Shown here: positions 21,014 through 36,674 of the stretch, one piece after another
Layout of the letters: the number at the start of each line of letters is the position of its first letter
Position numbering within the stretch: the stretch's first letter is position 1
Source of the DNA: Bacteroidales bacterium
Lineage (GTDB): Bacteria; Bacteroidota; Bacteroidia; Bacteroidales; UBA932
Length of the DNA: 54,497 bases
NCBI GenBank assembly: GCA_017519185.1
Contig: JAFWSX010000003.1
Span: 1 to 54,497 of the forward strand
Direction: 5' to 3'
Program-made: the position numbers and the translations under genes
The notes under the pieces: model-generated
What the model was told of the DNA's origin: nothing
Seen by the model: only the letters and a program-made list of their open reading frames with translations
Database searches by the model: none

Positions 21014-21088
21014 GGTGCCCGTAGTTCAGTTGGTTAGAGCGTCAGATTGTGGTTCTGAATGTCGTGGGTTCGAGTCCCACCTGGCACC
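21014..21088 (+). tRNA. tRNA-His (anticodon GTG)
   Basis: A cloverleaf can be drawn with acceptor GTGCCCG/CTGGCAC (one C-U mismatch at pair 6-67), D arm AGTTCAGTTGGTTAGAGC, anticodon loop TTGTGGT with GTG, and T arm GTGGG-TTCGAGT-CCCAC. The extra G at position -1 (21014) faces C73, the identity feature of tRNA-His. A full CCA end does not appear to be encoded. It marks the left edge of the accessory region. Confidence 0.93.
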
Positions 21089-21089
21089 C

Positions 21090-21422: not shown

Positions 21423-21459
21423 TGTACAAGGTCTGCAAAATTGCGACAGACCTTGCACA
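21423..21459. repeat. hairpin repeat, copy 1
   Basis: Inverted repeat TGTACAAGGTCTG / CAGACCTTGCACA, 13 bp with one mismatch, 11-nt loop. Belongs to a family with stem core CAAGGT/ACCTTG. Confidence 0.65.
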
Positions 21460-21507
21460 CTTGATTTTTGTATATGCTTGATTATTAGGGGTGTGAAATT
21501 TTGAGGT

Positions 21508-21542
21508 GTACAAGGTATGCACTGTTTTAGCAGACCTTGTAC
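21508..21542. repeat. hairpin repeat, copy 2
   Basis: 35-nt unit: GTACAAGGT / ACCTTGTAC stem (9 bp, perfect) around a loop containing TGCACTGTTTTAG. Confidence 0.75.
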
Positions 21543-21592
21543 GCTATAAGCGGTTTTGGAGACAGTTAGCGCCGTGGTAAGGATACGTTTTC

Positions 21593-21627
21593 GGGCAAGG
21601 TGTGCACTGTTTTATCCCACCTTGCCC
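21593..21627. repeat. hairpin repeat, copy 3
   Basis: 35-nt unit: GGGCAAGGTG / CACCTTGCCC stem (10 bp, perfect) around TGCACTGTTTTATCC. The arms are identical to the copy at 54181-54215. Confidence 0.8.
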
Positions 21628-21931
21628 GCTGGAAAAGGTGTGTGGCATCGGAAAGCGGCTGGCTTTTGGCGGCAGGGCAGAGGCTTGGAGGACGCACGTT
21701 CGCTCGGGCGGCAGCATTCGCCTCAATTGCCTGTCGCGACGACCTCCTCCTTTTTAGTCTGCATCTTTCGCTACGCTCAATCTGCGCCTAACCGTCGTCA
21801 AGCAATCGTCGCTCCCGGGCGGCAATCTCAGCTCTGCTGCTATTTCGCCCTCTCTCAAGCGCCCTTAACGCCTCTTGCCCTGCCGCACACTCCGCCATGG
21901 CGCTGATGTGCCTTGTTTTGTAGATGTATTC

Positions 21932-21965
21932 GGGCAAGCTATGCACTGTCTTAGCTCATATTACC
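21932..21965. repeat. hairpin repeat, copy 4 (degenerate)
   Basis: GGGCAAGCT followed by the conserved centre ATGCACTGTCTTAG; the right arm is decayed. It overlaps the 3' end of the small gene at 21951-22136. Confidence 0.5.
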
Positions 21966-22136
21966 CTCTGTAGCTCGTCCTCTTAGTATTCTGCTTATGA
22001 CCTGAATGGCCAAGTTTCGGTCAAACTGCCCCGGATACTCCTGAGTCATTGCATAGTAGATGGATCGTAAATCTGTATATCCTTCAATGTGGATGTAGCA
22101 AAACACAAGGTTTTCAAGTTCTGAGTCTGTCATCAT
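21951..22136 (-). CDS. small hypothetical protein
   Basis: 61 residues (MMTDSELENLVFCYIHIEG...), soluble, mostly helical in appearance, ending RGRATEGNMS. I do not recognise a family. It starts 1 nt after the stop of the upstream 234-residue gene, suggesting translational coupling, and its last codons run into a degenerate hairpin repeat, so the C-terminus may be altered. Last gene of the island. The start could also be the second Met. Confidence 0.5.
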   Translation of the reverse strand: MMTDSELENLVFCYIHIEGYTDLRSIYYAMTQEYPGQFDRNLAIQVISRILRGRATEGNMS

Positions 22137-22865: not shown

Positions 22866-22897
22866 TATAATATGGTATCAAATGCTCTTAAATTCAA
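22866..22897 (-). promoter_or_regulatory. shared 32-bp upstream element, copy A
   Basis: Minus strand begins TTGAATTT (22890-22897) and ends CCATATTATA (22866-22875) with 14 nt between; TTTGAT lies in the middle. The layout is identical to copies B, C and D. It can be read as -35-like TTGAAT and -10-like TATTAT. Confidence 0.7.
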
Positions 22898-22932
22898 TTT
22901 GGAAATCAAAAAATTATTAAAGTAGAGCCTTT

Positions 22933-23586
22933 CTATTGTTTGATAGTAACTTCAATGGTCCCGTCCTCCGCTGTCTTGAAGTCAAATTTCATCTTGTTGA
23001 TGCCGATATGGATCGGACCGGGGACGACGATAATCTCCTCTGTGAATAGACAGTATCCGTCCTTTTCCGCCATGCAGCGGAGTTCCTCTTCCGAACCGGC
23101 CGTCCAGCCGAATCGGCGCCCAAAGAAGCCTGACACTTCCTCCCGGGTCCTGAAAAGGAATGTGTTCTCATCGGAGACCACATAGAAATGAGGAGGTTCA
23201 CTGTCCGGAATCCTGTCGCAGAAGACCGTGATGCGATACGGGAAATACTTCCCTTCATCGTCATTCGTCTCATAGAGATCCGACTCCGAGACAAAGGAAT
23301 AGTAACGTATGTCGCAGATGCCAGAATCCTGCATTTCCTTCAGTTTCCATAGACACCGGCTCTGCTCCCACTTTGCCTCTTCAGTGAAACTGAGCACACC
23401 ATTGTCCATCTCTGCCCCGTACCAGTACGGACATCCTTCTTCCCGGAAACTCAGATCAGAGAGCGGCATTCCCATTTCGGGAAAAATCTCTGTAGCGTTC
23501 CTGCCTTCGCCAATAACTGAGGCCATCTTTTTAAGGGTGTTAACTTCTCCCTCTACCCAATACTTTGTAATACAATAATTTGCCAT
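22933..23586 (-). CDS. hypothetical protein, possibly DUF1281/Api92-like
   Basis: 217 residues. The start MANYCITKYWVEGEVNTLKKM resembles the opening strand of phage Api92-like/DUF1281 ferredoxin-fold proteins (M-N-W/Y-C-x-N pattern); this is a weak family guess. The middle is rich in aromatic and acidic residues, and the C-terminus MKFDFKTAEDGTIEVTIKQ looks like a short beta hairpin. It follows the VWA gene by 4 nt and is the last gene of the MoxR-VWA-ligase operon. Function unknown. Confidence 0.6.
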   Translation of the reverse strand: MANYCITKYWVEGEVNTLKKMASVIGEGRNATEIFPEMGMPLSDLSFREEGCPYWYGAEMDNGVLSFTEEAKWEQSRCLWKLKEMQDSGICDIRYYSFVSESDLYETNDDEGKYFPYRITVFCDRIPDSEPPHFYVVSDENTFLFRTREEVSGFFGRRFGWTAGSEEELRCMAEKDGYCLFTEEIIVVPGPIHIGINKMKFDFKTAEDGTIEVTIKQ

Positions 23587-23590
23587 ATTA

Positions 23591-24724
23591 TTAAGGTTTT
23601 TCCATAAAACATACTCTGCCGGATTCTCTCATCCACTTTCGGTGCTCATTATACTCTTTCTCGCTTCGGAGTATCCACAGCAGCCTCCCTCTCAGTCTGG
23701 CGGGGATCTCCGGCTTCGGTGCGTACCCGTCCGTAAAAATGATCAGGCCGTCGTATTCGCCGTGTTCGGCCATATAATCCACCACCGGCTGGAAATTGGT
23801 TCCGCCGCGCCCCTTGACCTTGAATCCGGCCTTTGCCCTCGTGAGGGTGACGGGTTCTCCCAGGGATGTGTCAAATGTGAGGGCATCGATCTTCTCCACC
23901 CCGTATTTGAAAAAGCGGTTAATGGTGGAAAAGAAAAACTTCAGGTCGTCGTCCGAGACGGATCCGCTCACATCGACCGCCACCAGGTAGTTGGTCCTCA
24001 GCTGCCGGATGCTTCCCATATACTGGAATCCGCTCCGTCGGTTCGGACGCATGCGGGTGAGCTTCCGCTTGGAGCACAGGATGCTGGAACGGAATCCGGA
24101 GAGGACCTTGCGATAGTCCAGCTTTGGTTTGAGTGCAGCCTGGATCTTATCCACGAGTTCTCCCGGCAGCGATCCCCAGGATGATATCTGCTCTACCGCC
24201 TGGCGGATTCCTTCCTGCATCCACTGGTCCTCTTCCCAGAGTTCTGCCTGTCCGCCGTTCGAATCACTTACCTGCTGATCTAAACAACCGGCACCGGTCT
24301 CGTCATCGCTATCTTGAGGAATGGGAGAAACGGGGTTGTTTCCGACGCATCTGTGTGCGTACCATTCGTAGTGTTGTCCTTCGGGGAGGCCACATTGGGA
24401 TGGGGTTATCATTCCGGGGATGCTATAGCACGTGGAGATGGCGAGATCACTTCCTTTCGCACAAGCCGGATCGCCACAACTGACTGGCTTCCGGCAATAT
24501 GGATGGAGCATCAGAGTGCGTATCATCTCTATCCGGAAACTCCTCTCTACATCTTCATACGTCATATTCTGAACCAAGGATGGATTATATTCCAGCCTTC
24601 CTTTCCCAACGCGGACCGGACATTCCATCCCTTCGTTTGGCGTCAGCTTATGGCGGCAGAAGGCGCCGAAGAGTGCAGGTTCGGTGAGGAACCAGATATC
24701 GGTCATCTTACTGATGTAATCCAT
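23591..24724 (-). CDS. VWA-like metallopeptidase-domain protein (DUF2201 type)
   Basis: About 377 residues. The C-terminal half is a von Willebrand factor A-like domain with a complete metal-ion-dependent adhesion site: DVSGSVS at 251-257, GRGGTNF, then the third-loop Asp in IIFTDGY. The N-terminal 200 residues correspond to the metallopeptidase-like half of DUF2201 proteins, but the HExxH zinc motif is absent (LMLHPYCRKP in its place), and there are about ten cysteines. In such pairs the MoxR ATPase acts on or through the VWA protein. The ATG at 24724 is 1 nt after the MoxR stop; an ATG at 24736 would give an 11-nt overlap. Confidence 0.85.
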   Translation of the reverse strand: MDYISKMTDIWFLTEPALFGAFCRHKLTPNEGMECPVRVGKGRLEYNPSLVQNMTYEDVERSFRIEMIRTLMLHPYCRKPVSCGDPACAKGSDLAISTCYSIPGMITPSQCGLPEGQHYEWYAHRCVGNNPVSPIPQDSDDETGAGCLDQQVSDSNGGQAELWEEDQWMQEGIRQAVEQISSWGSLPGELVDKIQAALKPKLDYRKVLSGFRSSILCSKRKLTRMRPNRRSGFQYMGSIRQLRTNYLVAVDVSGSVSDDDLKFFFSTINRFFKYGVEKIDALTFDTSLGEPVTLTRAKAGFKVKGRGGTNFQPVVDYMAEHGEYDGLIIFTDGYAPKPEIPARLRGRLLWILRSEKEYNEHRKWMRESGRVCFMEKP

Positions 24725-24725
24725 G

Positions 24726-25796
24726 CTACAGGCCATTGATGAACTGGGTCATACGGGTGAATACGGGAGCTGCGTCCACGACGATGAAAGCGACGGCTTT
24801 CTTCTGTTTCCCTTCGTTGAACAAGGAGGCAAAGTGCGCCAGCGCCTCTTTCCTGGCCCCCAACATGTCCACATACGAGCAGAGATTCTTTCCGGCAGTC
24901 TTCCGTTTGCGCGTATCGAGGTCGGTGATTTCGAGATAACGGAAAATGGACTCATTGATACCGGCCAGTTGGTGAACTTCCAACCCCGCAAGCTTGTCCT
25001 TGACCTTTGCGAAGCGAAGGAGGACATCTTCGGCTCCGGGGACGGAACTCTTCGATAGATAGGCGGCAAAAGCCGATGCCGCACGGACACCCACAATGCC
25101 GGAGATGACCTTGTAGTCCGTTTCATCTGGGCTTTCCATCCCGGCAAGGACATCCGACACCTTCGTCCAGGCCCTCCGGTCCGGGGTCTTTTCAAGGCCG
25201 GTATCTAACCCGGTCTCCTTGTCGGCTTCTCCATCCAGCCATTCCTGATGGGCCGAAATGAAACCGGTCACCCGCCGGTCCAGCCCGGCTTTCTCCGCCC
25301 ATAACAGCCAATCCTGCACCGAAGGGCGGAACGCATAGACATTGAATCGTGACACAAGCGCCGGATCCAGGTCGGTCAACTGGTATTCCTCGCCATCATT
25401 GACTGCTGAGATAAGGCGGCTCCCTTCAGGAAGACTGCGACCGGCAAGCTTGCGGTTCAGCGCCAGGTCCATAATGGTCTGGAGCACCTCGGGGCGGGCG
25501 CGGTTCAATTCGTCCAGGAAAAGCACTACCGGCTTCCCGTCAGTGGGGAACCAGTAAGGCGGCATGAAGTCGGTTTTGCCCGTTTCTGCGTTCTTGGTGG
25601 GAAGGCCGATGAGGTCGCCCGGATCGGACATCTGGCCCAGGAAGAGCGTGACGACTTTCATTCCCTTTGCTTCGAAGTAGCGGGTGAGAATCTGGGACTT
25701 GCCAATCCCGTGCTTGCCGGTAAGCATGATGTTCTGGGCTGCAGGCATCCTGGAAAGGACGCGCCCGAGTTCTGTAGAATCGATATAGATAGGCAT
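24726..25796 (-). CDS. MoxR-family AAA+ ATPase
   Basis: 356 residues. Walker A GKHGIGKS at 27-34, Walker B VVLFLDELNRA with Asp-Glu at 95-96, sensor 1 in LISAVNDG, and arginine-finger segment DPALVSRF. QMSDPGDLIGLP between Walker A and B is the MoxR-type insert region. MoxR ATPases act as chaperone-like remodelers with VWA-domain partners, and the VWA gene is directly downstream. The upstream neighbour is a leucine-rich-repeat protein (2-nt gap). The target here is unknown, but the operon also holds a polynucleotide ligase. Confidence 0.93.
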   Translation of the reverse strand: MPIYIDSTELGRVLSRMPAAQNIMLTGKHGIGKSQILTRYFEAKGMKVVTLFLGQMSDPGDLIGLPTKNAETGKTDFMPPYWFPTDGKPVVLFLDELNRARPEVLQTIMDLALNRKLAGRSLPEGSRLISAVNDGEEYQLTDLDPALVSRFNVYAFRPSVQDWLLWAEKAGLDRRVTGFISAHQEWLDGEADKETGLDTGLEKTPDRRAWTKVSDVLAGMESPDETDYKVISGIVGVRAASAFAAYLSKSSVPGAEDVLLRFAKVKDKLAGLEVHQLAGINESIFRYLEITDLDTRKRKTAGKNLCSYVDMLGARKEALAHFASLFNEGKQKKAVAFIVVDAAPVFTRMTQFINGL

Positions 25797-25798
25797 AG

Positions 25799-26941
25799 TT
25801 AATTATAAAAGATGAAGCGCAAATGATTGCGACCGTATTTCTTATCAATCTCCTTGACCTGGCGGGTAACGAATGAGATTACTTTTTGGGAAAGGACGAA
25901 GGTCTCTGTCAGTTCCTCCTTTCTTCCTTCCACAGATAGTTCGATATCAACTGCAACATCGTTGAATGCATAGCAGAACATGCATTTTTTGTTTTGGTGA
26001 TTGACCTCTATCCTGCCCAGGCGAATCTTGTCGATATGCTCCGAAAAGGCATTCGTCATTGCTTTGAAACGTAGGGCGATGTCGGCAGCCTGCTCGGCTT
26101 TTTCCTGGGTCATTTTACCTCCGAGCCGGAATACGATGCCATTGCGGTCCCAAAGTTTGACGCTGAGCCACTTGCCATCGTACTGTTTCCGTATTTCCAG
26201 ACCCGTTGGTGAGAATGCGGCGTCAATCTGAGCGTTCCAGGACAGTTCATCCATTTTTTTGAGTTTCTCCTTTTTTTCCTCGAGCAAACTCACCAGTTTA
26301 TCGTCTCTGACAATCAAATAGGGATTCTCAGGAGCAATGGTGATACGATGGACTTTCCAACTACTCGAGTAATGATACCTTGGATGGCATTCCCGCAGAG
26401 TCGACGGGATGTGGAGGTGATCAGTAATTATGCTTTCGGGAGTAAAACTCAGCATGCCTTCCGGGAGGATAATCTCTGCTTTTCCATTCTCGCTTTTAGG
26501 AAGAGAACTGACATTTTTGACCGTAGACGGAAGATGGAAGACTCCGTCGACCTTACAATCCAAAGCATCTGCACAAATCCTTTCCAGCGAATCGGGAAGA
26601 ATCAGGTTTTCCTCGAAATGGCAGTGATAGAAACAACTGTATTTCAGTTTTTTCAAGCCATCCGGAAGCGTGATGGATTTAATCAGCATATCGGAAGGAG
26701 CATCCGAGAATGCTCCAGCCGGAATATAGTCAACGCCTGGCGCGAAGACATATTTCAGGGCATGAACTGGCTTGTCAGACCGAATGGACATATATTGTTT
26801 GATCGGAATGAGATTCCCGTCAATCCATAGTTCCTGGCAGCAACACCCCGCACCTTTCATAACAGCCTGATCCACATCGTAACGGCCGGGGCCGTAACGC
26901 GAAGGCAGTTCCACCACCATCGTCATCACTAAGCCATCCAT
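25799..26941 (-). CDS. BspA-type leucine-rich repeat protein
   Basis: About 380 residues, no signal peptide. Residues about 40-200 contain degenerate LRR_5 units (SITLPDGLKKLKYSCF, NLILPDSLERICADAL, GVFHLPSTVKNVSSLP, EIILPEGMLSF), the BspA/Treponema type common in Bacteroidales. The C-terminal 150 residues do not look like repeats and contain a SWNAQIDAAFSP...GLEIRKQYDGKWLSVKLWDRNGIVFR segment I cannot assign. The start ATG overlaps the ligase stop by 1 nt (TGATG), so it is coupled to it. A cytoplasmic LRR in a ligase/ATPase operon may be a recognition or scaffold subunit (inference). Confidence 0.75.
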   Translation of the reverse strand: MDGLVMTMVVELPSRYGPGRYDVDQAVMKGAGCCCQELWIDGNLIPIKQYMSIRSDKPVHALKYVFAPGVDYIPAGAFSDAPSDMLIKSITLPDGLKKLKYSCFYHCHFEENLILPDSLERICADALDCKVDGVFHLPSTVKNVSSLPKSENGKAEIILPEGMLSFTPESIITDHLHIPSTLRECHPRYHYSSSWKVHRITIAPENPYLIVRDDKLVSLLEEKKEKLKKMDELSWNAQIDAAFSPTGLEIRKQYDGKWLSVKLWDRNGIVFRLGGKMTQEKAEQAADIALRFKAMTNAFSEHIDKIRLGRIEVNHQNKKCMFCYAFNDVAVDIELSVEGRKEELTETFVLSQKVISFVTRQVKEIDKKYGRNHLRFIFYN

Positions 26942-28305
26942 CACGCAACGGCCTCCCAACCCTTTTTGATATTGGAGAGAATCTCCTCCTTGAAGATACT
27001 GCGGATGCCGGCCTCGTCGGGAGCATAGGCCATGTCGCGCTTGAGAATGTCCTTGCGGCCGCTGCTGTAGTCCGTATGGTAGAAGATGTAGGCCGGATAG
27101 CGGCTGGTGGCTTCCTTGTTGGTCTTCCAGATGAGGAACTTGTGGAGCATCACCTTGTCGCCTGAAATCTTGCGGTAGACGCGGCGGTCCAAGATAGTGC
27201 TGGGTGTAAGTTCGCCCTTAAGTCCCTGTACTTCCTCGAAGGGACAGAGGTCGGTGAGCTGACTCACGCGGATGTCGGTCTCGGACGGGGTCTTGTCGGT
27301 CCTTTCGCGAATGAAACTGAGGCCGAAGGCCGATACGCCCGGGGTCATCCCCTCGTGCAGCCACTGGCCGCCATCGAAACTCACCAGGGCGTTCATCCGT
27401 ACCTTGTCGTCATTACCTCTGGCGACGAGTTCAATGACGCTCACTTCCCATACGATCTCCGGGCGGACCATTTGGTAGGCAATGCCGCGGGAGTCGGTAA
27501 GGACATACCGGGACTCCACATTCATCCCCTGCAGGCGCCCTGCAAGGGAGGTGCGGTCCACGTCGGACAGGGCGCCAGAGCCTACGGCAAAGACCTGGAA
27601 CAGCCCGTCCTCGCGCCGTACAGCCAGCATCAAGTCGCGTACGCCCAGTTCGCCGGTGGTGTAGCCGACAATGGCGGCGTCGATGCTGTGGCGCGGTTTC
27701 ACCTTGGCGACGATACTGCTGTCTGAATGGATGACGAGGCCTTCTGCCCCATCGCACTCCACCCATTCGTCGTAGATGGCCTGCACCTCGTCCAGCGAGG
27801 ATGCGTGCATCATCTGGACGGGGCAGACAGAGTCGGCCTTGAATATGTCGGAAAGGGCCTTGTAAGTCTCCTGGTAAGGCACACCTTCGAAGGACTTTCC
27901 GTCCAGCGAGACGATGTCGAAGGGGGCCAGGCAGAGCTGGTCGCGGCGGGTGTCATCTGCCAGGGCCGATGTTACATCTGCACAGCGGGGACGTCCTCCC
28001 TCCCTGGGCATATAGAGCTCTGCTGCAACGATGACGTCCTTTACGCCGGCTTTTTTCAGGCATTCCGCAGCTACTTCGAGGCAGTGCAGTTTTCCGGCCT
28101 TGTCGATGCCGCGAGAGTTGAGCAGTACGGCATCACCGTCCTTGTAGAAGAGGATCTGGAGGTGTCCGTCGATCTTGCGAGTGACGAAGAAGTCGGTTCC
28201 TGCGACTCTGCTGCTAAGCTTCGAGCCTTCCACCAGCATATACTTGCCGGCGATGTTCTTCTTGTAGTCTATAGCTGTCTGGCTGAGTATTTTCGTAATT
28301 TCCAT
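26941..28305 (-). CDS. ATP-dependent polynucleotide ligase
   Basis: About 454 residues. The nucleotidyltransferase motifs are in order: KIDG at 44-47 (the Lys that takes AMP), SRG at 64-66, AELYMP at 95-100, FDIV at 129-132, EGLVI at 188-192, and AKVKP at 200-204 (motif V). An OB-like region follows (VRPEIVWEVSVIEL), as in ATP-dependent DNA ligases. The last 180 residues (from about 275) are an extension I do not recognise. DNA or RNA substrate cannot be decided from sequence. Start at ATG 28305, 4 nt after the upstream stop; the frame is open to 28356. Cotranscribed with MoxR, VWA and LRR genes, which is unusual for a ligase. Confidence 0.85.
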   Translation of the reverse strand: MEITKILSQTAIDYKKNIAGKYMLVEGSKLSSRVAGTDFFVTRKIDGHLQILFYKDGDAVLLNSRGIDKAGKLHCLEVAAECLKKAGVKDVIVAAELYMPREGGRPRCADVTSALADDTRRDQLCLAPFDIVSLDGKSFEGVPYQETYKALSDIFKADSVCPVQMMHASSLDEVQAIYDEWVECDGAEGLVIHSDSSIVAKVKPRHSIDAAIVGYTTGELGVRDLMLAVRREDGLFQVFAVGSGALSDVDRTSLAGRLQGMNVESRYVLTDSRGIAYQMVRPEIVWEVSVIELVARGNDDKVRMNALVSFDGGQWLHEGMTPGVSAFGLSFIRERTDKTPSETDIRVSQLTDLCPFEEVQGLKGELTPSTILDRRVYRKISGDKVMLHKFLIWKTNKEATSRYPAYIFYHTDYSSGRKDILKRDMAYAPDEAGIRSIFKEEILSNIKKGWEAVA

Positions 28306-28309
28306 ATTT

Positions 28310-29002
28310 TTAGAGGGATTTGAGTTCGAGATTGGTGAGACGGAGAATAAGGGCATAGCTGTCGCCCCGGGTACGGCCTTCGAGGAAGGCGCGATAAGGA
28401 GTACCGCCGGTCTGCATCACCAGCGGGCTGATGCCTTTGGCTCCTGCGCCAACGAGCATCATAGACTTGGCATCGGCGAGTTTCTTCGCCATTGCCTGCA
28501 GGAAGTCGAATGTGAGGCCGTTCACGTGGCGGAGCTGGTAGCTCTTCTTGAAGACGAATCTGCGTATAGCGTCCGACTTTGGCATCATCTTGCCAGTCCA
28601 GCGGACGGGCATTCCGTCTACGGCGATATTACCTGTTGTGGAGGCCTCGGGACGGACTTCTTTCTCGGTCCCGTCGGGGTTGAAGACCTGTTCTGTGAGG
28701 GTGACGCCATAAGCGACCTTGCCTTCATCTGTGAGATATACCTTCTTCAAGCCTTCCAGTCTGAGCCCGACCTTCTCCAGGTCGATCTCCGGATCCTCAG
28801 CGACAATGGCTTCGTGAAGGCTGTCGGCATAATGCTCCAACAGGGCTTGCGGTTCGGTTTCCATCGTACTGCGGAGACGTTTCTCGGAGTGGGTTGCGCT
28901 TCCGTCAGCGGTCTTGTAAGTAGTTTTAATGCGGGTGGACTTGGCCTCAAAAGCGACTTCTGCATCGCGCCTTTCTGCATTGGAAATGTTGAACTTTCTC
29001 AT
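28310..29002 (-). CDS. hypothetical protein of the ligase operon
   Basis: About 230 residues, basic N-terminal third (MRKFNISNAERRDAEVAFEAK...) with Thr/Ser-rich RIKTTYKTADGSATHSEKR. Later it has paired charged helices (LLEHYADSLHEAIVAED), then a compact C-terminal part (SMMLVGAGAKGISPLV ... RGDSYALILRLTNLE). No signal peptide or membrane segment. I do not recognise a family. A TTG at 29011 is in frame, but the ATG at 29002 is preferred. It sits between another unknown gene (13 nt upstream) and the ligase (4 nt downstream), so it probably works with the ligase. Confidence 0.7.
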   Translation of the reverse strand: MRKFNISNAERRDAEVAFEAKSTRIKTTYKTADGSATHSEKRLRSTMETEPQALLEHYADSLHEAIVAEDPEIDLEKVGLRLEGLKKVYLTDEGKVAYGVTLTEQVFNPDGTEKEVRPEASTTGNIAVDGMPVRWTGKMMPKSDAIRRFVFKKSYQLRHVNGLTFDFLQAMAKKLADAKSMMLVGAGAKGISPLVMQTGGTPYRAFLEGRTRGDSYALILRLTNLELKSL

Positions 29003-29015
29003 ATCTTTCAAATAA

Positions 29016-29612
29016 TTAAATCATACTGAAATCCAGTTCGTCAATGTCTTCCACAACCTCTTCTTCGGATTCGTCGATCTCGGCCTCTTCGCCGAGCGAC
29101 ACGGGAGTGAAGTCCACCGGACTCCCGGCAAAGAGGAAAAGGCCCGAGGGGCAGTTCATCAGAAAACCATCCAGGAGAGTATTGCCTCCACTGTAACTGA
29201 AAGGAAAAGTGAAAATCTGCGCGCCAACTGAAGCGGATAGATCCATATTCTGTATCTGATAGACAGAAGCCCACTCGTGGTCGAGGAACTCCTCTTCTGT
29301 TGCTGTACAGGTGAGTTCTATCGGAAAATCAAATGAAGAAGGATATGTCTCAAGTTCTTTTCCGTCTGGATCAAAGGCGATCAGATCGGATTTCTTGACG
29401 ATTAGTCCCTCCTCGTCTACAGTAGCCATTTTGGCAGCACCTGAAGGTATCATCAGAGACTCCTCAGGACTGATGTATGCGGCGGTACAGATGCGTCCGT
29501 CGCGATCTGTTGCTACAAGGCTGCTCCAGCCGTAGATCTTCTTGCGCTCCAGTTTAACAGGAGCGGCGGCATAGGCATTGCTGCCAAGGATGAATGATAA
29601 TTCTTTTGCCAT
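29016..29612 (-). CDS. hypothetical protein, first gene of the ligase/MoxR operon
   Basis: 198 residues. It starts MAKELSFILGSNAYAAAPVKLERKKIYGW, then contains short beta-rich repeats around Asp-Gly turns (ATDRDGRICTAAY, TVDEEGLIVKKSDL, AFDPDGKELE). A strongly acidic tail of about 25 residues (EEAEIDESEEEVVEDIDELDF) follows. Acidic tails are often seen on proteins that bind basic partners or mimic nucleic acid; here that is only a suggestion. No family recognised. Directly preceded by copy B of the shared 32-bp element. Confidence 0.7.
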   Translation of the reverse strand: MAKELSFILGSNAYAAAPVKLERKKIYGWSSLVATDRDGRICTAAYISPEESLMIPSGAAKMATVDEEGLIVKKSDLIAFDPDGKELETYPSSFDFPIELTCTATEEEFLDHEWASVYQIQNMDLSASVGAQIFTFPFSYSGGNTLLDGFLMNCPSGLFLFAGSPVDFTPVSLGEEAEIDESEEEVVEDIDELDFSMI

Positions 29613-29646
29613 AGTTATTTGTTTGATTATTCGAATTCGTTACGTT

Positions 29647-29678
29647 TTTAATATAGGATCAAGTGCCTCGAAATTCAT
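29647..29678 (-). promoter_or_regulatory. shared 32-bp upstream element, copy B
   Basis: Minus strand begins ATGAATTT (29671-29678) and ends CTATATTAAA (29647-29656), with ACTTGATC in between. It lies 34 nt before the ATG at 29612 and just after the nucleotidase stop. It would drive the seven-gene unit 29612-22933. Confidence 0.75.
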
Positions 29679-29681
29679 TTC

Positions 29682-30128
29682 TCAGGCATTAAAATGTTTT
29701 AAAACTGTGTTCCAGTCCGGAAACTCCGAACTGCCGAAGTGAATCCATTCACCCTCGAAATGCTCGGCGCCGTGGCCAGAGCGGTCATCAATCAGAAAGT
29801 TTCCTTTGAGGAGACTCTTGTTATGACATAGAATGACTCGTTTTTCATAATACGGGTCCATATGAATCTTGACCCAGTTCACCTTGTCGGACCAGGCCGA
29901 CAGGTTGTCCCATGGTGCGGTTGACAGAAGATAGATGTCGTACTTTTTTCTCAGCCTGTCAAGGGCTTCCAGTGCGCCTGGAATTGGATCCATCAGGGCG
30001 AACACTCCGGGAGCATCCTCGGGATGCGAAGAATATTTTTCCAAGATCTCTGAACTCAAACGATTGATTCCAGTGTTGAAATCCACCAGCACGCCGTCCA
30101 TATCAACATAAAGGGTTTGCTTTCTCAT
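29682..30128 (-). CDS. HAD-family 5'(3')-deoxyribonucleotidase (NT5C type)
   Basis: 148 residues. HAD motifs: I YVDMDGVLVDF (nucleophile Asp and acid/base Asp), II LLSTAPW, III Lys in CHNKSLLKG, IV LIDDRSGHG. The short cap and overall pattern match 5'(3')-deoxyribonucleotidases of the NT5C family. The expected activity is dephosphorylation of nucleoside monophosphates, possibly of nucleotide ends. Single-gene unit: terminator upstream at 30191-30226, own copy C of the shared element 21 nt before the ATG, and copy B directly after its stop. Confidence 0.88.
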   Translation of the reverse strand: MRKQTLYVDMDGVLVDFNTGINRLSSEILEKYSSHPEDAPGVFALMDPIPGALEALDRLRKKYDIYLLSTAPWDNLSAWSDKVNWVKIHMDPYYEKRVILCHNKSLLKGNFLIDDRSGHGAEHFEGEWIHFGSSEFPDWNTVLKHFNA

Positions 30129-30149
30129 AGTCTGTTCTATTAATCACGA

Positions 30150-30181
30150 TATACTATAGAAACAAGGGGCAGCAAATTCAA
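30150..30181 (-). promoter_or_regulatory. shared 32-bp upstream element, copy C
   Basis: Minus strand begins TTGAATTT (30174-30181) and ends CTATAGTATA (30150-30159), with CCTTGTTT in between. It lies 21 nt before the ATG at 30128 and immediately downstream of a terminator. Confidence 0.75.
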
Positions 30182-30190
30182 TAATCTGTC

Positions 30191-30226
30191 AAAAAAAAAT
30201 CCGCAGAGACTATCATCTCTGCGGAT
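30191..30226 (-). terminator. intrinsic terminator
   Basis: Perfect 11-bp stem ATCCGCAGAGA / TCTCTGCGGAT (30199-30209 with 30216-30226), 6-nt loop, followed on the minus strand by a run of T (complement of A at 30191-30199). It ends the unit that includes the small LRR gene. Confidence 0.9.
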
Positions 30227-30247
30227 TCCGTTTCGTCAGGCAGGAAC

Positions 30248-30532
30248 TCAACGCCAGTGGTCCGGATACAGGTCAACTTCCCTGCCCTCTTTCAAATACT
30301 GTGGCAGATCTGTGAATGGGCTGAATAGCGTACTGCTATATGAGTGCTTATCATCACCCCAGCACTCTATTTCAGTGACAGAATCGGGCAGAACTACTTT
30401 CTGCAGGTTAGAGCAACCGATGAAGGCATCCTTTTCTATGCGGATGATGCCTTCAGGAATAACAACCTCAACCAAATCATCGCGATTGGCGAACATCCTG
30501 CTGCTTATGATGCCTTTACTAATCTTCATCAT
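30248..30532 (-). CDS. short leucine-rich repeat protein (LRR_5)
   Basis: 94 residues. One and a half BspA-type repeats are clear (LVEVVIPEGIIRIEKDAFIGCSNLQKVVLPDSVTEIE), flanked by a polar C-terminus ending YPDHWR. It may be a stand-alone small LRR protein or the remnant of a longer one. It follows the Sel1-like gene by 10 nt, and the terminator at 30191-30226 comes next. It is the second LRR_5 protein of the island. Confidence 0.65.
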   Translation of the reverse strand: MMKISKGIISSRMFANRDDLVEVVIPEGIIRIEKDAFIGCSNLQKVVLPDSVTEIECWGDDKHSYSSTLFSPFTDLPQYLKEGREVDLYPDHWR

Positions 30533-30542
30533 CCCTCAGGTT

Positions 30543-31028
30543 TTAATCAAGCATCTTGACAAATGAATCGTAGAGTTCTTGGGAGAATCCGGCTTCGAGA
30601 GCACGGTCGTAGTATTTGCGTGCCTTATCCTTGTCCAATGGGAAGCCACATACCTGTTCTGCATAATTCTCCCCTATATCAACCATAAGAGAAGGCAGAA
30701 CCTCAGGCATATTGTCAAAAGGAATATGGGAGGAAATGAAGGATCCCAGTTTCTGCATTTCGATGGGATCAGGTTCAAAGATATGTTCGTCAGAGTAGCT
30801 ATGCCGCTCGACAGGAACAATTTCGTGCGTGTCTTCGTCTTCGAAGTCTTCGGTCCAGACTTTTTCTATTTTACGTGTAGTTTCTCCAAGAAGGAGTAAT
30901 ATGGCAGCATCAAGGTTTCCGGCATCAGCCAGAGGCTTGATATCATTTTTGGTAAGACCGCTTTTCTGAAGGGCAATGTCAGCTTCCAGACCAGCTGCAA
31001 GAATTTCTTTGAGTGTGTCTTCTATCAT
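30543..31028 (-). CDS. Sel1-like repeat protein
   Basis: 161 residues, acidic and helical. The C-terminal segment GENYAEQVCGFPLDKDKARKYYDRALEAGF resembles a Sel1-like repeat, a tetratricopeptide-type helix pair used for protein contacts. The N-terminus has paired helices with an LLLLGETTRKIEKVW stretch. No enzyme motif. First gene of a two-gene unit preceded by copy D of the shared element (19 nt). Confidence 0.6.
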   Translation of the reverse strand: MIEDTLKEILAAGLEADIALQKSGLTKNDIKPLADAGNLDAAILLLLGETTRKIEKVWTEDFEDEDTHEIVPVERHSYSDEHIFEPDPIEMQKLGSFISSHIPFDNMPEVLPSLMVDIGENYAEQVCGFPLDKDKARKYYDRALEAGFSQELYDSFVKMLD

Positions 31029-31047
31029 AATCCGAATTTGTTTACGC

Positions 31048-31079
31048 TATAATATAGACACATTTTGCCGTAAATTCAT
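31048..31079 (-). promoter_or_regulatory. shared 32-bp upstream element, copy D
   Basis: Minus strand begins ATGAATTT (31072-31079) and ends CTATATTATA (31048-31057), with AATGTGT in between. It lies 19 nt before the ATG at 31028. Confidence 0.75.
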
Positions 31080-31090
31080 GATTCCGCTGA

Positions 31091-31996
31091 CTATTTGATA
31101 TCGTAACGGTCAGATTTACGAATCCAAACACGGCAATCTTCTTGGTTTGTTCTTTCCTCATCGATTTCAAAAACACCAACAAATCGATAGAAATTGAATC
31201 CCAATACATCCTTCTCCTTAAAGAATACGATGCGCTTCTCCTTAGTATTTAATGCGTTAGTTTTAATAACTCGCCTTTCCTCATCGGTTGCTTCATTCTT
31301 TCTTTCCCTAATAAAAAATCTATCTGAAGACAAGGTATTAGTCCAGATTTTATTTATTGAAGCTGGGCACCATACAATTGTATTATCTTCATCAGGTAGA
31401 TTAAACCCTCCAGGTCGTAGAAACCCTCTATGCTTAACTTTTATGCCAAAAATAGCAGCAGCATCATCTATGCTCCTGACATAATCGAACTCGTTAGCCG
31501 AAAAGTATCCTTTTTCTTTATGATACTCTACTGAGAGGAAGTCACCACTCCATATATGGAAAGACCCGTTTTTTTCCTTGTCGGCGATAGCTTCTTTAAT
31601 GAAATCAACCACCTCATCTATTTGCTTATTAATGCCGGATAACGTGTACTTTGCGTCGTTACTAGGATCAATATCTGCAGGATCTTTACATATAGGGATA
31701 CGCCGTATTACTGCACCAGAAACGGCAGTAATCTCTTTGCTTCTTATTGCATCAAGAATCTTGTTATCTTCAATGTTATGCTGCGCTTCATCAATCTCAA
31801 CAATAATGTTTAGTTGAGGGAAAAACAGATCGGCTAGAGCAAAACTTCCGTCTGAACGCTGAAAATACTGTTGAGTGACAAAATGAATCCTATCATCGGA
31901 AAGTTTATTCCAAATCCTCTGTATGGCATATGACTCAAATCTTTTATGAGCTATCTTTCTGAAGAGTCTAGCGATATAATCAAGCTTGTAATCCAT
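31091..31996 (-). CDS. predicted restriction-like endonuclease, possibly PvuRts1I/AbaSI-like
   Basis: 301 residues. An N-terminal Vsr/DUF559-like PD-(D/E)XK nuclease core is visible near residues 50-90: ALADLFFPQLNIIVEIDEAQHN followed by DAIRSKEI, giving D-x(n)-ExDExxH. The C-terminal 140 residues end in KRIVFFKEKDVLGFNFYRFVGVFEID, reminiscent of SRA/PUA-like modified-base readers. An N-terminal Vsr-like nuclease plus C-terminal SRA-like domain at about 300 residues is the architecture of 5hmC-dependent enzymes such as AbaSI; this match is from memory and tentative. AT-rich compared with neighbours. Downstream of, and probably cotranscribed with, the DUF2779 gene (16-nt gap). Confidence 0.65.
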   Translation of the reverse strand: MDYKLDYIARLFRKIAHKRFESYAIQRIWNKLSDDRIHFVTQQYFQRSDGSFALADLFFPQLNIIVEIDEAQHNIEDNKILDAIRSKEITAVSGAVIRRIPICKDPADIDPSNDAKYTLSGINKQIDEVVDFIKEAIADKEKNGSFHIWSGDFLSVEYHKEKGYFSANEFDYVRSIDDAAAIFGIKVKHRGFLRPGGFNLPDEDNTIVWCPASINKIWTNTLSSDRFFIRERKNEATDEERRVIKTNALNTKEKRIVFFKEKDVLGFNFYRFVGVFEIDEERTNQEDCRVWIRKSDRYDIK

Positions 31997-32012: not shown

Positions 32013-33545
32013 TTATTTCGTATATTCTATCAATTTCTCCCACACCTTCACCATGGCGAGGGTATCTAACTCACAGTAGCGGAGCAAGGCTTCGCGGGCG
32101 GCTGCGGCATCGGCCGGGGACATTTTGGCGATGGATGGAAACAGATTCATGGCGTCGCCACCGTTCTGGCAAAGGCCGCTGAGGGCGTGGTAGTCCAGTT
32201 GTGGATCGTCCGGGAAAAGGGCCGGTAGGACGCTCTTGATGCTGAATGAGCCACCCATTGCCGGGACATAGTAGTCGCCGGCACGGAACGGGTCAATGAG
32301 GTCCTGGATGTTGTCGGCTATGTTGCGCAGGTGATCCGCCAGGTCCGGGAAGGAATTGGCCAGTTCCCGCAGGCGACCGCATTCGAACATCTTGTTGTAG
32401 GCCAGCGTGCATACATCCTTCGGGATATCCCGGCATAGGGCTTCGGCAATGTCCCGGCGCGGATCCTGGCCGCTGATGCCCAGGAATTCCTTGTGAAGCA
32501 GAGGACCGCCTTCCTTCTCAATGATGTGCAGTGAATATTGAAAAGGAATCTGCTGATAAGGCGAAGTGCCCGGATACTGCGGAAGGGCATCCTGCTGGGT
32601 TTCGAAGTCCAGGAAGTAGAGCGGATAGGTAAGTTTGTCCAGAAAGGCCTTGATACCCTCCGGGTTGATATGTTCCTTATCCTCCAGCGTACATTCAATC
32701 TGCATGTTCTGGATGGGGCCGATGTCTTCGTCACGAAGTTCTTCGAAAGTGATTATGCCGTTTTTGTAATGCTCCAGCTTCTTGCCGAAGGTAAACCCTC
32801 CGCGGCCCTTTCCGCCATAAACATTGAATACCGATGGCTTAGGCAGATGGCGGGCGCAATACTCCCAGAAAGCGCATCTATACGGATCGTGGCAATGCAG
32901 CCCAAGGTCGATGTCAGGCTCAGTGCCGGCAAGCGTACGCTTAGCGGCAGCAATCATCTGCGGAACGACCTGATATTCCTGCTGGACAAGCTCGGCCAAA
33001 TCTGCCGTGTAGAACAATCCCTTGACATCAAGCTGGTCGCCACGGACATACTCCTTGTCGATGCGGACCAGATAGGTCCCCGTCACCTTGACGCCACATT
33101 GCTCCAGGACATATTTTTGATAAGCTATATCACGTGCATACTTGACGTACTCAGGACCATCCTCCGGCTGGTCAACAGTGCCCGACGAACTCTTTACTTC
33201 ATAGATGGCCCAACCACCGGCAGTCTTATGAAGGATATCCACAGCGCAATAGTTCCCATCCCAAGAGAAAGAAGCTTCAGCGATATTCTCAACGCCTCTA
33301 GCCATGCAGTCCTGGGTACGGCGACACATCTCCGAAAGGTCAAGACCACCGTCAGAAGTGGTGACAGTAACTTCCTCGTAGGGACCGAGGTAACCCATAG
33401 CCAGATCACCGATGACATTACCTTCGGCAAAACGCGCCTCAAGAGCCTTGTCTTCGGTAGCTGCATCCGGATTATTTATCCTCAGCCACAAAGCCTTCGG
33501 ACACTGCCGAAAAAGAGTATAACGGGATTTAGAAAGGTTTTTCAT
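32013..33545 (-). CDS. DUF2779 nuclease (Cas4-like plus DEDD exonuclease)
   Basis: 510 residues. The N-terminus SKSRYTLFRQCPKALWL and the later cluster CHDPYRCAFWEYCARH supply four cysteines in the pattern of Cas4/AddB iron-sulfur nucleases. The PD-(D/E)XK core is in AVDILHKTAGGWAIYEVKSS. From about residue 340 an RNase H-fold exonuclease region carries LDFETQQDALPQYPG, TLAYNKMFECGRLREL and CELDTLAMV, the DEDD-type acidic residues of DUF2779. It is probably a DNA end-processing nuclease, but family function is not established. It lies 3 nt downstream of the PDDEXK_4 gene. Confidence 0.85.
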   Translation of the reverse strand: MKNLSKSRYTLFRQCPKALWLRINNPDAATEDKALEARFAEGNVIGDLAMGYLGPYEEVTVTTSDGGLDLSEMCRRTQDCMARGVENIAEASFSWDGNYCAVDILHKTAGGWAIYEVKSSSGTVDQPEDGPEYVKYARDIAYQKYVLEQCGVKVTGTYLVRIDKEYVRGDQLDVKGLFYTADLAELVQQEYQVVPQMIAAAKRTLAGTEPDIDLGLHCHDPYRCAFWEYCARHLPKPSVFNVYGGKGRGGFTFGKKLEHYKNGIITFEELRDEDIGPIQNMQIECTLEDKEHINPEGIKAFLDKLTYPLYFLDFETQQDALPQYPGTSPYQQIPFQYSLHIIEKEGGPLLHKEFLGISGQDPRRDIAEALCRDIPKDVCTLAYNKMFECGRLRELANSFPDLADHLRNIADNIQDLIDPFRAGDYYVPAMGGSFSIKSVLPALFPDDPQLDYHALSGLCQNGGDAMNLFPSIAKMSPADAAAAREALLRYCELDTLAMVKVWEKLIEYTK

Positions 33546-33548
33546 TAG

Positions 33549-34775
33549 TTATGGAATTGTCTGAATATTTGATTGAATGGACTTAGCGATTTTATGAGCT
33601 TCTCCATAAATATTTATAAAAACATCGGACTTAGCTAAAAACCAAGAAGATGCTTTTCCTCTTTTTGCAATATTCTTATCAAGAGATATCCTAGGTTTGG
33701 CTGTACCCTTTTGTAGATTTTTAGCACTTGCTATACGCCAAGTATTATTACTTAATCGTTTGAACATTTTATTTACATTACTGTTCGGATCGTATAGGAA
33801 CTTCGTGTATTGTGAACTGCTTCGTTGAAGGTAATCCTTGTGATTTATGCCTACCTTAAATGTTCCACCCTGGAACTCAATATTTAATTCATAATCACCA
33901 ATACTACATATAGGAACAACAAACATAGCAACCCCATTCCTTTCATCATACCTCACGTTACTTGTTATAAATTGCGACAATAGGGGAACAATATTATTTG
34001 CAAGATATTGTTTTTGAAAAATGGTTTCCAATCCATTTTCCACGATGAACCGCTCATCCTGGGATATTTGCGTTTGCGTAAGATCTTTTTGAGATTTCTT
34101 TAGTTTGTTGAACACATGAGTGTAACTGCAGGGTTTTGTTGTTTTTAAGAAATTATTTAGTTCATCGATAATCCTTGATATCGAATTACTATACTCTCCG
34201 ATCAGTACATTAGCGCTAAGGTTTTGTCCCTTTAGGAAATTTGATAAATCACTATATGTACATGAACCCCATTTGCTACTTGGACTCTTTGCCTTATCTC
34301 CGCTCAGCGATAAAAGGGTAAAATGAGTTGTTACATTGGAATAAGAATTGTCGATGATATAATCATCAATGATATGCTCATATTTCTCAGTTTGCCATAT
34401 AGTATCTGTGCTGGTATTCCATCTATTCTTTTCTTCAGCGCTAACCATAGACATATGTTCCTGAGACTTGAGTTTATTCTCAATTACCCATACATCTTCC
34501 GCCCCTTGAGTATCTACTGTCTTAATCATAATGTCGATATCATTCCACTCGACATATGTTTTAATGGAATTGAACTGTTTAGTCGGCTGTAACCCGAATA
34601 ATATACATAGCAAATCTGAACGGCATTTAATAGGGAATGTGGCAAACTGACTTGAAGCAATTGTCGTCTTTGACGATATTGACGGATCATTTTCATCATC
34701 AAGAATCCAGGCAATCATCGCCGAATGGACCTTCTCCATGTCAGCAACACCGATGGCATTGAAAAAGTTTTTCAT
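33549..34775 (-). CDS. PD-(D/E)XK nuclease superfamily protein (PDDEXK_4-like)
   Basis: 408 residues. N-terminal EKVHSAMIAWILDD is the helix that opens PDDEXK_4 proteins; the core follows as ...EWNDIDIMIKT...DVWVIENKLKSQEHMS, giving the D and ExK residues. The remainder is rich in Asn, Ser and Lys. Codon use and base composition are markedly more AT-rich than the metabolic genes on either side, a sign of recent transfer. First gene of the block 34775-31091, with a standard Bacteroidetes promoter at 34793-34823 rather than the shared 32-bp element. Confidence 0.8.
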   Translation of the reverse strand: MKNFFNAIGVADMEKVHSAMIAWILDDENDPSISSKTTIASSQFATFPIKCRSDLLCILFGLQPTKQFNSIKTYVEWNDIDIMIKTVDTQGAEDVWVIENKLKSQEHMSMVSAEEKNRWNTSTDTIWQTEKYEHIIDDYIIDNSYSNVTTHFTLLSLSGDKAKSPSSKWGSCTYSDLSNFLKGQNLSANVLIGEYSNSISRIIDELNNFLKTTKPCSYTHVFNKLKKSQKDLTQTQISQDERFIVENGLETIFQKQYLANNIVPLLSQFITSNVRYDERNGVAMFVVPICSIGDYELNIEFQGGTFKVGINHKDYLQRSSSQYTKFLYDPNSNVNKMFKRLSNNTWRIASAKNLQKGTAKPRISLDKNIAKRGKASSWFLAKSDVFINIYGEAHKIAKSIQSNIQTIP

Positions 34776-34792: not shown

Positions 34793-34823
34793 CAAAGATA
34801 GATATTTATGTCTCTATTTTCAA
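34793..34823 (-). promoter_or_regulatory. promoter of the nuclease operon
   Basis: Minus strand: TTG at 34821-34823 and -7 TATCTTTG at 34793-34800, spaced 20 nt, 17 nt before the ATG at 34775. Confidence 0.7.
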
Positions 34824-35471: not shown

Positions 35472-36674
35472 CTATTGTGCTTTCTTATAAGGTTTCAGCA
35501 GAGCGTACTGCCTGTCAAGCAGAGCCCTGAGCTCCTTCAGGTCCTTGCTTTCCCTCACGCGGTTGACCTGGGCGTTGGGCGCGTCGTGCATCGGAGCCAG
35601 CTGGGCAGACTCGAGCATATTGGCACCGACTTCCGCAATGTGGATACCCTCTGCAAAGTCCTTTCCTCCGGCCTTCTTCCAGGCTTCAGTGCGGCTGAGC
35701 ACGCTGCCGATCTTGTCCTCACGGTCCGGGAATTCAGGGAACGGATTGCTGCGGTTGCGGAAATAGCCCAGGATAGCGGCCGGGATGGACGGATCGCGGA
35801 CAGTGCCGTCACCGTAAAAGACGCCGTGGACAGTGCCCCAGCCTTTCTCGACGATCATAAGCTCCCAGATGCACCAGCCCATTCCGGCTTTCATATGCTC
35901 CTCGAGCGTCACGTCATAGGGATTGGCGCGGGCCACGCAGCCCATCTCACCGTTGAAAACCTTCTTGCCCACCTTGTCGGCAAAAGCCTGGGCGCGGGCT
36001 ATGGTATCGCGCACTTCGTCGCGAGTCTCAGAATAATTGTGGAACTGCAGGATGTCGGCATAGTCGGCCATCTCTATCATACAAGAAACCTTCTCCATTC
36101 CGATAGTCAGAGGAGTTGCCGGATCCATCTCCTTGAACAGACCGTACATAAGCTTGCAATTCTCAAAGTTGCTTTCCTTCATACGCCTGTTGAGGTCGGG
36201 CTCGTTCATCAAGTCCCACATCATCAGGTTCGGCTCGTCCTTAAGCGCAGCCACAAGGAATTCCACCCATTCACGAGCCTGGCTTCTCAGAGTCGTGTCA
36301 CGGGTCCAGCGGCCGCTGCCGACAACCGGCACCATTCCGATGCCGCGCTCGTTGCACTGGCGGGCAAAGTCCTGCAGCCTCGGCGTCAGTTCGTCACCAA
36401 GCTCCGTGAAGCACTGATATGGAACGAACACGCGGGCCATATTCAGCTTCAGCCCCTGGGCCAGGTCGAGGTTGAATGCAGTCTCTTCGGGGTCATAGTT
36501 CACCCAGGTGTCGATGTGGTGCCTGGGCTCGGCCACATATGCAGGAGTATAGTTGAAACCACGGATCTGCGTGCAGTCAATGGCGTACTTGTCAGTCTTG
36601 GGTGCAGGAGCGCTGCAGGAGGCCAATGCGGCGATGCCGGCTAAGGCCAGAAAAAGAAGTCTGAAGGATTTCAT
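35472..36674 (-). CDS. GH5-like glycoside hydrolase lipoprotein
   Basis: 400 residues. Signal peptide with lipobox (FLALAGIAALASCSAP) predicts a lipid-anchored envelope protein. The (beta/alpha)8 clan-A pattern is visible: GFNYTPAYV at the barrel start, MMWDLMNEPD with the acid/base Glu, and VFNGEMGC with the nucleophile Glu. The closest general match is the cellulase/mannanase group (GH5 or a relative); the substrate cannot be decided. A TAnnTTTG element precedes it at 36699-36706. Divergent from the GH3 gene, which suggests shared use of a beta-linked glycan. Confidence 0.8.
   Translation of the reverse strand: MKSFRLLFLALAGIAALASCSAPAPKTDKYAIDCTQIRGFNYTPAYVAEPRHHIDTWVNYDPEETAFNLDLAQGLKLNMARVFVPYQCFTELGDELTPRLQDFARQCNERGIGMVPVVGSGRWTRDTTLRSQAREWVEFLVAALKDEPNLMMWDLMNEPDLNRRMKESNFENCKLMYGLFKEMDPATPLTIGMEKVSCMIEMADYADILQFHNYSETRDEVRDTIARAQAFADKVGKKVFNGEMGCVARANPYDVTLEEHMKAGMGWCIWELMIVEKGWGTVHGVFYGDGTVRDPSIPAAILGYFRNRSNPFPEFPDREDKIGSVLSRTEAWKKAGGKDFAEGIHIAEVGANMLESAQLAPMHDAPNAQVNRVRESKDLKELRALLDRQYALLKPYKKAQ

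Follow-up and report, generated by a model that had tools for sequence, protein, structure and literature searches.

Introduction

Few non-canonical promoters have been described for the phylum to which the Bacteroidales belong, and the timing with which accessory and defence islands are expressed in these bacteria is little known. In the text of two reports, the motifs SM5 and SM6 of Flavobacterium psychrophilum and PM2 of Bacteroides thetaiotaomicron are ascribed to alternative sigma factors (PMC9723704, PMC7366714), and the text of a third gives the promoter of the phiKZ group of jumbo phages, in phiKZ itself, as TATATTAC (PMC7058600). The current study concerns a 30-bp element, WTGAATTT-N15-YATANTA, of which four ungapped copies lie on the minus strand of an island in a Bacteroidales bacterium (lineage UBA932). 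The window, meaning the whole stretch of DNA that was analysed (54,497 nucleotides, nt), is contig C13 (JAFWSX010000003.1) of a 2.21-Mb genome (assembly GCA_017519185.1), and coordinates given without a locus name refer to it.

The element stands upstream of genes, recurs in other species and is associated there with the same gene families. We favour, with about as much doubt as conviction, the interpretation that it represents a separate and genuine promoter class, which RpoD, the primary sigma factor, reads together with a shared switching factor, and that it starts four units of an acquired, defence-like island. The element was not described in the titles and abstract openings of the open-licence literature searched, and in PMC11253607 the element string forms part of a primer.

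Results

Four copies of the element in the island

A first-pass annotation of this DNA had reported four ungapped copies of a promoter-like element of 32 bp, each 19–34 nt before an ATG. The four copies are confirmed at those places on the minus strand; the conserved portion is a 30-mer, to which the 32 bp add two 3' bases, and measured from the 30-mer the distances to the ATG are those given below.

22868–22897, minus strand: copy 1, TTGAATTT...CCATATTA, 25 nt upstream of the ATG of the gene for a 234-amino-acid (aa) protein
29649–29678, minus strand: copy 2, ATGAATTT...CTATATTA, 36 nt upstream of the ATG of g198
30152–30181, minus strand: copy 3, TTGAATTT...CTATAGTA, 23 nt upstream of the ATG of the NT5C gene
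31050–31079, minus strand: copy 4, ATGAATTT...CTATATTA, 21 nt upstream of the ATG of the 161-aa gene, g161
30196–30229, minus strand: 15-bp intrinsic terminator with a T run, located between two transcription units directly before copy 3

All four copies are intergenic and lie on the coding strand, and copy 2 heads the run g198-g233-ligase-LRR-MoxR-VWA-g217. The stem of the terminator, which is the longest stem listed, ends approximately 14 nt before copy 3; terminator-like sites in the window overall do not exceed the shuffle mean. The promoter-like character ascribed to the element is thus borne out by its two conserved blocks, its variable spacer, its position upstream of genes on the coding strand and the terminator before copy 3. 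Copy 2 begins 3 nt and copy 4 begins 11 nt past the preceding gene, so close that transcription reading through from upstream may also enter both units.

The 40-mer flanks of the copies agree at only 0.23–0.53, against 0.63–0.73 for the elements themselves. Duplication of a cassette or a tandem repeat was therefore rejected as the origin of the copies, which cannot be recent duplications given such unrelated flanks; the repeat search of the window did not report them among repeats of at least 18 nt.

Rarity of the element and its recurrence at homologous loci

Allowing up to two mismatches, the window contains six matches; 100 shuffles averaged 0.62 and never exceeded 3. In the whole 2.21-Mb genome the only exact matches are the four island copies, all of them before island genes. 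Near matches comprise three sites with one mismatch (two of them inside open reading frames, ORFs) and 38 with two, and the total of 45 sites with up to two mismatches compares with 20 for the reversed pattern. Since the pattern was derived from the copies themselves, loci fetched by homology weigh more as a test.

Eight such Bacteroidales loci (115 kb) were fetched through homology to the island ligase (57–68% identity) without use of the motif. Three exact matches occur in two of the eight, one in L038 and two in L040, and there are two further matches with one mismatch, one in L040 and one in L044, the latter lacking the C before the -7 box and probably being due to chance. Shuffling these loci 100 times gave no exact match and, with up to one mismatch, a mean of 0.17 and a maximum of 2. 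The gene behind the L038 copy is the ligase, and in L040 the orthologous g198 operon follows a copy; no exact or near copy was seen at six more distant relatives from one genus of the bacterium's own family. Among 13 usable regions upstream of g198, the window included, a TAnnTT(T/C)G box lies 28–48 nt before the start in eight, the element is found in two (the window and L040) and neither box type in three. At g198 starts the element therefore sits where a promoter belongs, as relatives carry TAnnTT(T/C)G there.

The genus of G199, the genome that holds L040, was scanned with TTGAATTTTT-N11-ACYATATTA at up to one mismatch, which yielded 44 sites in 24 of 101 genomes against a single match of the reversed-pattern control; G199 is counted among the 24 with six sites, and several sites often share a contig. 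The family of G496 holds five sites in two of 15 genomes, and the strict pattern was absent from the 198 other genomes searched in the bacterium's own family. Across the order, the loose exact form was found in 14 of 393 genomes, and the strict form with one mismatch at 22 sites in 18 of 393 against 10 control matches; outside a few genomes these 22 sites are therefore mostly chance. It could be argued that the four copies, too, are a chance likeness of AT-rich upstream regions, as the pattern was drawn from them, weaker matches occur elsewhere in the genome and the order-wide strict scan reaches only about twice its control. The recurrence in the ligase-homolog loci and the 44 sites against one control in a single genus make this explanation unlikely; it was rejected, and we consider its likelihood negligible.

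Consensus and promoter class

The fullest form of the element is TTGAATTTTT-N11-ACTATATTA. In 12 exact matches of the window pattern from ligase-relative genomes, further favoured bases, at positions where the pattern set no condition, are T8 (11/12), T9 (10/12), A21 (9/12) and C22 (10/12); the 49 intergenic copies of the census described below seem constant at these four positions, though the search pattern demanded those bases. The window copies have C22 in all four cases, and T8 and T9 in none. The TG at a fixed spacer position, pointed out in the first-pass annotation, is found in 4/4 window copies, and outside the window only the G is favoured (31/49 copies; the T is present in 23/49).

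Canonical boxes were surveyed in 399 upstream regions from 146 sources, many of which had been fetched through the motif. The 166 TAnnTTTG boxes are preceded by a weak TTG 23 nt upstream, followed by a T-rich stretch; the TTG stands at exactly that offset in 37 of the 166 and at it or four neighbouring offsets in 63. The two blocks of the element have this RpoD spacing, and its -7 box is C-TATATTA-like, not TAnnTTTG, so that the earlier statement that the element is unlike the TTTG/TAnnTTTG promoters holds for the -7 box and fails for the block spacing, which is identical. Compared with a primary-sigma promoter, the TG of the -33 box is rightly placed in 4/4 copies and TAnnTTTG is present in none at -7, nor within 150 nt of the four starts; more widely, of 14 island starts examined at this distance, 13 are without such a box. 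Among the motifs of promoters for extracytoplasmic function (ECF) sigma factors, the comparison covered an AAC-type -35 and a CGT-type -10 as in SM6, and the copies, whose blocks are TGAATTT and C-YATANTA, have neither. Sigma-54 promoters, which carry GG/GC at -24/-12, were rejected as a candidate because the copies are devoid of -24/-12 elements.

Hybrids between the element and the canonical promoter occur in L213, L218 and L222 (genomes G200, G204 and G551), some ending in TATATTTG, which indicates that some relatives have no sharp boundary between the two classes. Of 52 sites compared, 6 end in TTG, 43 in TTA and 3 in other bases.

Genes behind the element in other Bacteroidales

In total, 36 regions of 28 genomes were fetched around copies (16 plus 20), and 32 of them entered a census of sites with up to two mismatches, L223–L226 being left out as single weak matches. 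The census returned 54 distinct sites, five of which are inside an ORF. A same-strand ORF starts within 120 nt of 40 of the 54, and in 32 of these 40 the start is 20–63 nt away; because presence of the element was the criterion for fetching these regions, this gene spacing is evidence, and the density of sites is not.

NT5C homologs (41–54% identity) stand behind copies in L219, L331, L334 (176 nt away), L336 and L339, and in L340 the homolog is the second gene behind the copy. In L322 and L324 the MoxR and VWA genes are followed by a copy, behind which stands a YubB-like relative of the 217-aa island protein (28% identity). L330 has a copy followed by an AAA gene and then by g198 and g233, with the ligase further on. 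Other genes behind copies encode PD-(D/E)XK_4 and GmrSD_N proteins, AAA ATPases and small proteins assigned to no family. These arrangements suggest that the same promoter class starts comparable islands in Prevotella-like and other Bacteroidales and that their genes form a co-regulated set, the genes behind the element probably being switched on together by a shared factor.

Further likenesses among these loci were noted. The WTEDFEDEDTHE-like stretch of g161 has a BLAST match only in L266 and none in L322–L341; by eye, proteins resembling it stand behind copies in L322, L326 and L340. A protein of 550–590 aa recurs behind or near copies in L324, L214, L216, L325, L330, L338 and L341, with an AAA domain in the two that were scanned (L324 and L214), the others being grouped by size and start. 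DUF2779 homologs (51–63% identity) are found near copies or in ligase loci in L323, L328, L329, L333, L338, L040, L043 and L045.

The island and its other features

The island occupies approximately 12.6 kb of the minus strand between a tRNA-His gene (21015–21089) and a GH5-like gene (35472–36674). In the order of transcription it comprises the following.

34793–34823, minus strand: canonical sigma-A promoter of the PD-(D/E)XK-DUF2779-PvuRts1I operon (TTG at 34823–34821, -7 box TATCTTTG at 34800–34793), without the element
33549–34775, minus strand: PD-(D/E)XK nuclease (PDDEXK_4, by family search), head gene of the sigma-A-driven operon
32013–33545, minus strand: DUF2779 protein (family search)
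31091–31996, minus strand: PvuRts1I-like modification-dependent endonuclease, N domain plus SRA (PADLOC mREase_II)
30543–31028, minus strand: g161, a 161-aa protein without a Pfam match
30248–30532, minus strand: 94-aa LRR_5 protein of the copy-4 unit (family search)
29682–30128, minus strand: NT5C-type 5'-deoxyribonucleotidase (family search)
29016–29612, minus strand: g198, conserved protein to which no function is assigned by family (no Pfam, NCBIfam or PADLOC match)
28310–29002, minus strand: g233, conserved protein, likewise without assigned function or Pfam, NCBIfam or PADLOC match
26941–28314, minus strand: ATP-dependent ligase (DNA_ligase_A_M by family search; like ligases of non-homologous end joining)
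25799–26959, minus strand: LRR_5 protein (family search)
24726–25796, minus strand: MoxR-like AAA ATPase (family search)
23591–24736, minus strand: VWA-like DUF2201 protein (family search)
22933–23586, minus strand: 217-aa protein (g217), 28% identical to the YubB-like proteins of L322 and L324
22138–22842, minus strand: 234-aa protein without a family match and without a homolog among the loci examined

The first-pass annotation had taken the element to imply one regulator or sigma factor for the whole island. As regards the whole island this is not supported: a sigma-A promoter stands in place of the element before the PD-(D/E)XK-DUF2779-PvuRts1I operon, and two promoter classes therefore share the island.

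The G + C content is uneven, ranging from 34 to 61% in 1-kb windows, and this, together with the distribution of relatives, suggests horizontal acquisition of the island. The tRNA-His gene adjoins the end of the island, and tRNA genes are a usual integration site; no second copy of the tRNA-His 3' end that might serve as an attachment site was found in the window. Between the tRNA-His gene and the island, at 21423–21978, lie hairpin-forming repeats of the CAAGGT...ACCTTG type, the first copies of which are approximately 85 nt apart.

The g198, g233 and ATP-dependent ligase genes form a conserved unnamed module (26941–29612 in the window; L032–L037, L039–L045 and L330), the order and distance of which vary in L039 and L330 and which is sometimes accompanied by MoxR and VWA genes. 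Modelled structures were weak, with a mean predicted local distance difference test score (pLDDT) of 63 for g198 and 34 for g233, and too poor for a fold search.

Discussion

Employing pattern scans, homology-fetched loci and sequence controls, it was possible to delineate an element for which we propose the following mode of action, to which we give about an even chance. The RpoD holoenzyme would read the element, a proposal based on its RpoD spacing and on relatives in which hybrids end in TATATTTG; the missing TTTG would make the promoter weak on its own; and an activator, a repressor or a modified polymerase common to the gene set would contact the other conserved bases, namely AATTT after the TG and the C before the -7 box, and so switch the whole set. 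A sigma factor search of the bacterium's own genome returned RpoD, eight ECF-sized genes and one sub-threshold match, RpoD being the only region-2 match above cut-off with a frame of more than 200 aa, and the element is absent from all ten loci. With one of the short sigma proteins discussed below as query, a search which does not reach ECF genes, G000, G201, G204 and G206 gave one match each, all with frames of RpoD length. Since G000, G201 and G204 hold element or hybrid copies, RpoD, possibly assisted by another protein, is the more likely reader than a dedicated sigma-70 factor.

Several points speak against this interpretation. A full TTG is found in only two of the four window copies, the other two having ATG, and one copy has CATATTA. 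The final A in 43 of 52 sites is odd if RpoD prefers TTTG, although most of these loci were fetched with patterns requiring A. The combination TTGAATTT-N15-TAnnTTTG occurs once in six genomes (among them G200, whose hybrid begins with A, and not G204 or G551), which would fit a different sigma factor too. Transcription from the element is predicted from sequence, and no regulator family was matched among the island proteins searched. Among 10 island proteins submitted to PADLOC, a set that left out NT5C, the 94-aa LRR_5 protein, DUF2779 and PD-(D/E)XK, only the PvuRts1I-like nuclease was assigned to a defence family, and it lies behind the sigma-A promoter; for the element-driven units, 'defence-like' would therefore be a description drawn from neighbours and relatives.

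The C-TATATTA specificity could instead be conferred by an alternative sigma factor, either an ECF factor or a small protein with region 2 only that is encoded beside the element in some genomes, the islands then being a sigma regulon. We consider this unlikely, if still worth serious attention. The two blocks are constant, their distance suits a sigma factor and the spacer between them varies freely, and TTGAATTT is rarely paired with TAnnTTTG. Proteins with regions 1.2–2 and without region 4 are encoded within approximately 0.3 kb of copies in G199 (contig C132), G699 (C29), G704 (C5) and G496 (C12), and a fifth lies approximately 9 kb from a copy in G496 (C36); these proteins are 69–152 aa in length (L211, 1709–2047; L331, 2070–2420; L325, 10983–11192; L266, 1357–1791; L261, 1387–1845), and Pfam Sigma70_r2 was above cut-off in two of three scanned. 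The rpoD gene itself carries the element in three genomes of the G199 genus (L327, 7791; L337, 7013; L298), where the element overlaps and lies just upstream of the canonical promoter, by our reading shifted by 11 nt, and in G496 a copy precedes a gene whose protein, read by eye, is clpP; stress-sigma promoters sit at rpoD and clpP in other bacteria. Ten other rpoD regions viewed have no element. Against a dedicated sigma factor, the bacterium's own genome encodes no such short protein, none of its ten sigma-match loci has the element, the WW pair of region 2 is lost in four of the five short proteins, and the -33 block is left unexplained by proteins that have no region 4. The CGT box, as given for the ECF motif in the text on Flavobacterium (PMC9723704), is also absent. 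The short proteins may contribute to the switch or may simply belong to the gene set.

Two further explanations, both of which we regard as improbable, assign the element to a phage or to a donor lineage. In the former, large phages of the putative host group share the element, and a phage factor or modified polymerase activates the islands, or the genes derive from phages or satellites. The strict form was found as seven exact stretches on four viral contigs. A separate viral scan with the loose pattern gave a single match in every stretch among those listed and led no further. The fetched parts of a 193-kb viral contig contain 10 copies with up to two mismatches and no reversed-control match, six of them within 12.3 kb (L345), mostly before small genes and some ending in canonical TATATTTG. 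A 410-kb viral contig has three exact copies and one with one mismatch, one copy standing directly behind a head-protein-like gene that has relatives in phage PAU and in Prevotella Lak phages. In addition, PvuRts1I-like and GmrSD_N genes, enzymes of which attack modified phage DNA, are present in the window island and in G496, and there are PHROG family matches for the MoxR, VWA and ligase proteins. Against this, by a rough reckoning, the seven matches could be chance in bulk AT-rich viral DNA, only the clustering being telling; 150 kb sampled from each of Lak-A2 and the 462-kb phage LR756500 gave no match with up to two mismatches; none of 14 island proteins matches 13 viral loci; and a one-pattern search of viral contigs for short sigma proteins confirmed none of 98 candidates. 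The copies at rpoD and clpP suggest that the host uses the element, and host promoters are often copied by phages. A recent phage origin of the ligase operon was rejected, as no close relative of the ligase is viral; distant PHROG matches remain for the ligase, MoxR and VWA proteins, MoxR matching 431 phage records, all below 60% identity. A wider version of this scenario, which appears to us equally doubtful, is that accessory islands, including modification-dependent nucleases against large phages with modified DNA, are wired to the promoter type of those phages, so that a phage programme or a small region-2-only sigma factor would trigger the whole set; if true, the set would be a defence regulon that phages trigger and that has a promoter code to itself. 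In the donor-lineage explanation, a constitutive promoter that is strong or favoured in one Prevotella-like lineage moved with the island, and the promoter type would be shared without any common regulation. The concentration of the element in one lineage, the lack of the strict pattern among the other genomes searched in the bacterium's own family and the use of the element by phages and by rpoD of three genomes agree with this; an odd -7 box and two blocks kept while spacer and flanks differ, the rarity of the element genome-wide and the location of fetched copies mostly before accessory genes do not.

Should the preferred interpretation of an RpoD-read promoter under a shared factor hold, a promoter class recognisable from sequence would allow co-regulated genes to be listed directly across many unannotated islands and would assist in finding the switch. 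The element also points to several conserved, unnamed modules (g198-g233-ligase with MoxR/VWA, NT5C and g161-like genes) as belonging to one programme.

Among described systems, the Bacillus SigO/RsoA type is a split sigma factor in which a region-2-only protein is encoded beside the promoters, as in some relatives of this bacterium; the present case differs in that no region-4 partner was seen, though none was looked for, and that the short protein is absent from the bacterium's own genome. Like the Escherichia coli sigma-70 promoter (TTGACA-17-TATAAT), the element has TTGAAT or ATGAAT, a 17-nt spacer and TATATT, TATAGT or CATATT; it differs in that bases outside the two hexamers are conserved as well and that this host has an RpoD of the Bacteroidetes type. 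As described in the text of the reports, rather than by their motif logos, SM5 is TAnnTTGY, SM6 has a CGT box and PM2 is near-palindromic, and that text contains no TGAATTT/TATATTA pair (PMC9723704, PMC7366714). Promoters of the phiKZ group share the TATATTA core with the element; in the phiKZ relatives listed, an AT-rich block adjoins the core and, unlike in the element, there is no TTGAATTTTT at a distance of 11 nt (PMC7058600). The primary-sigma promoter of Bacteroidetes (sigma-ABfr, with TTTG at -33 and TAnnTTTG at -7) has the same distance from the TG block to the -7 box as the element. The window copies differ from it in having no TTTG in the -7 box (4/4) and in the additional conservation of AATTT and of the C before the -7 box, and in relatives the two are joined in hybrids such as TTGAATTTTT...CTATATTTG.

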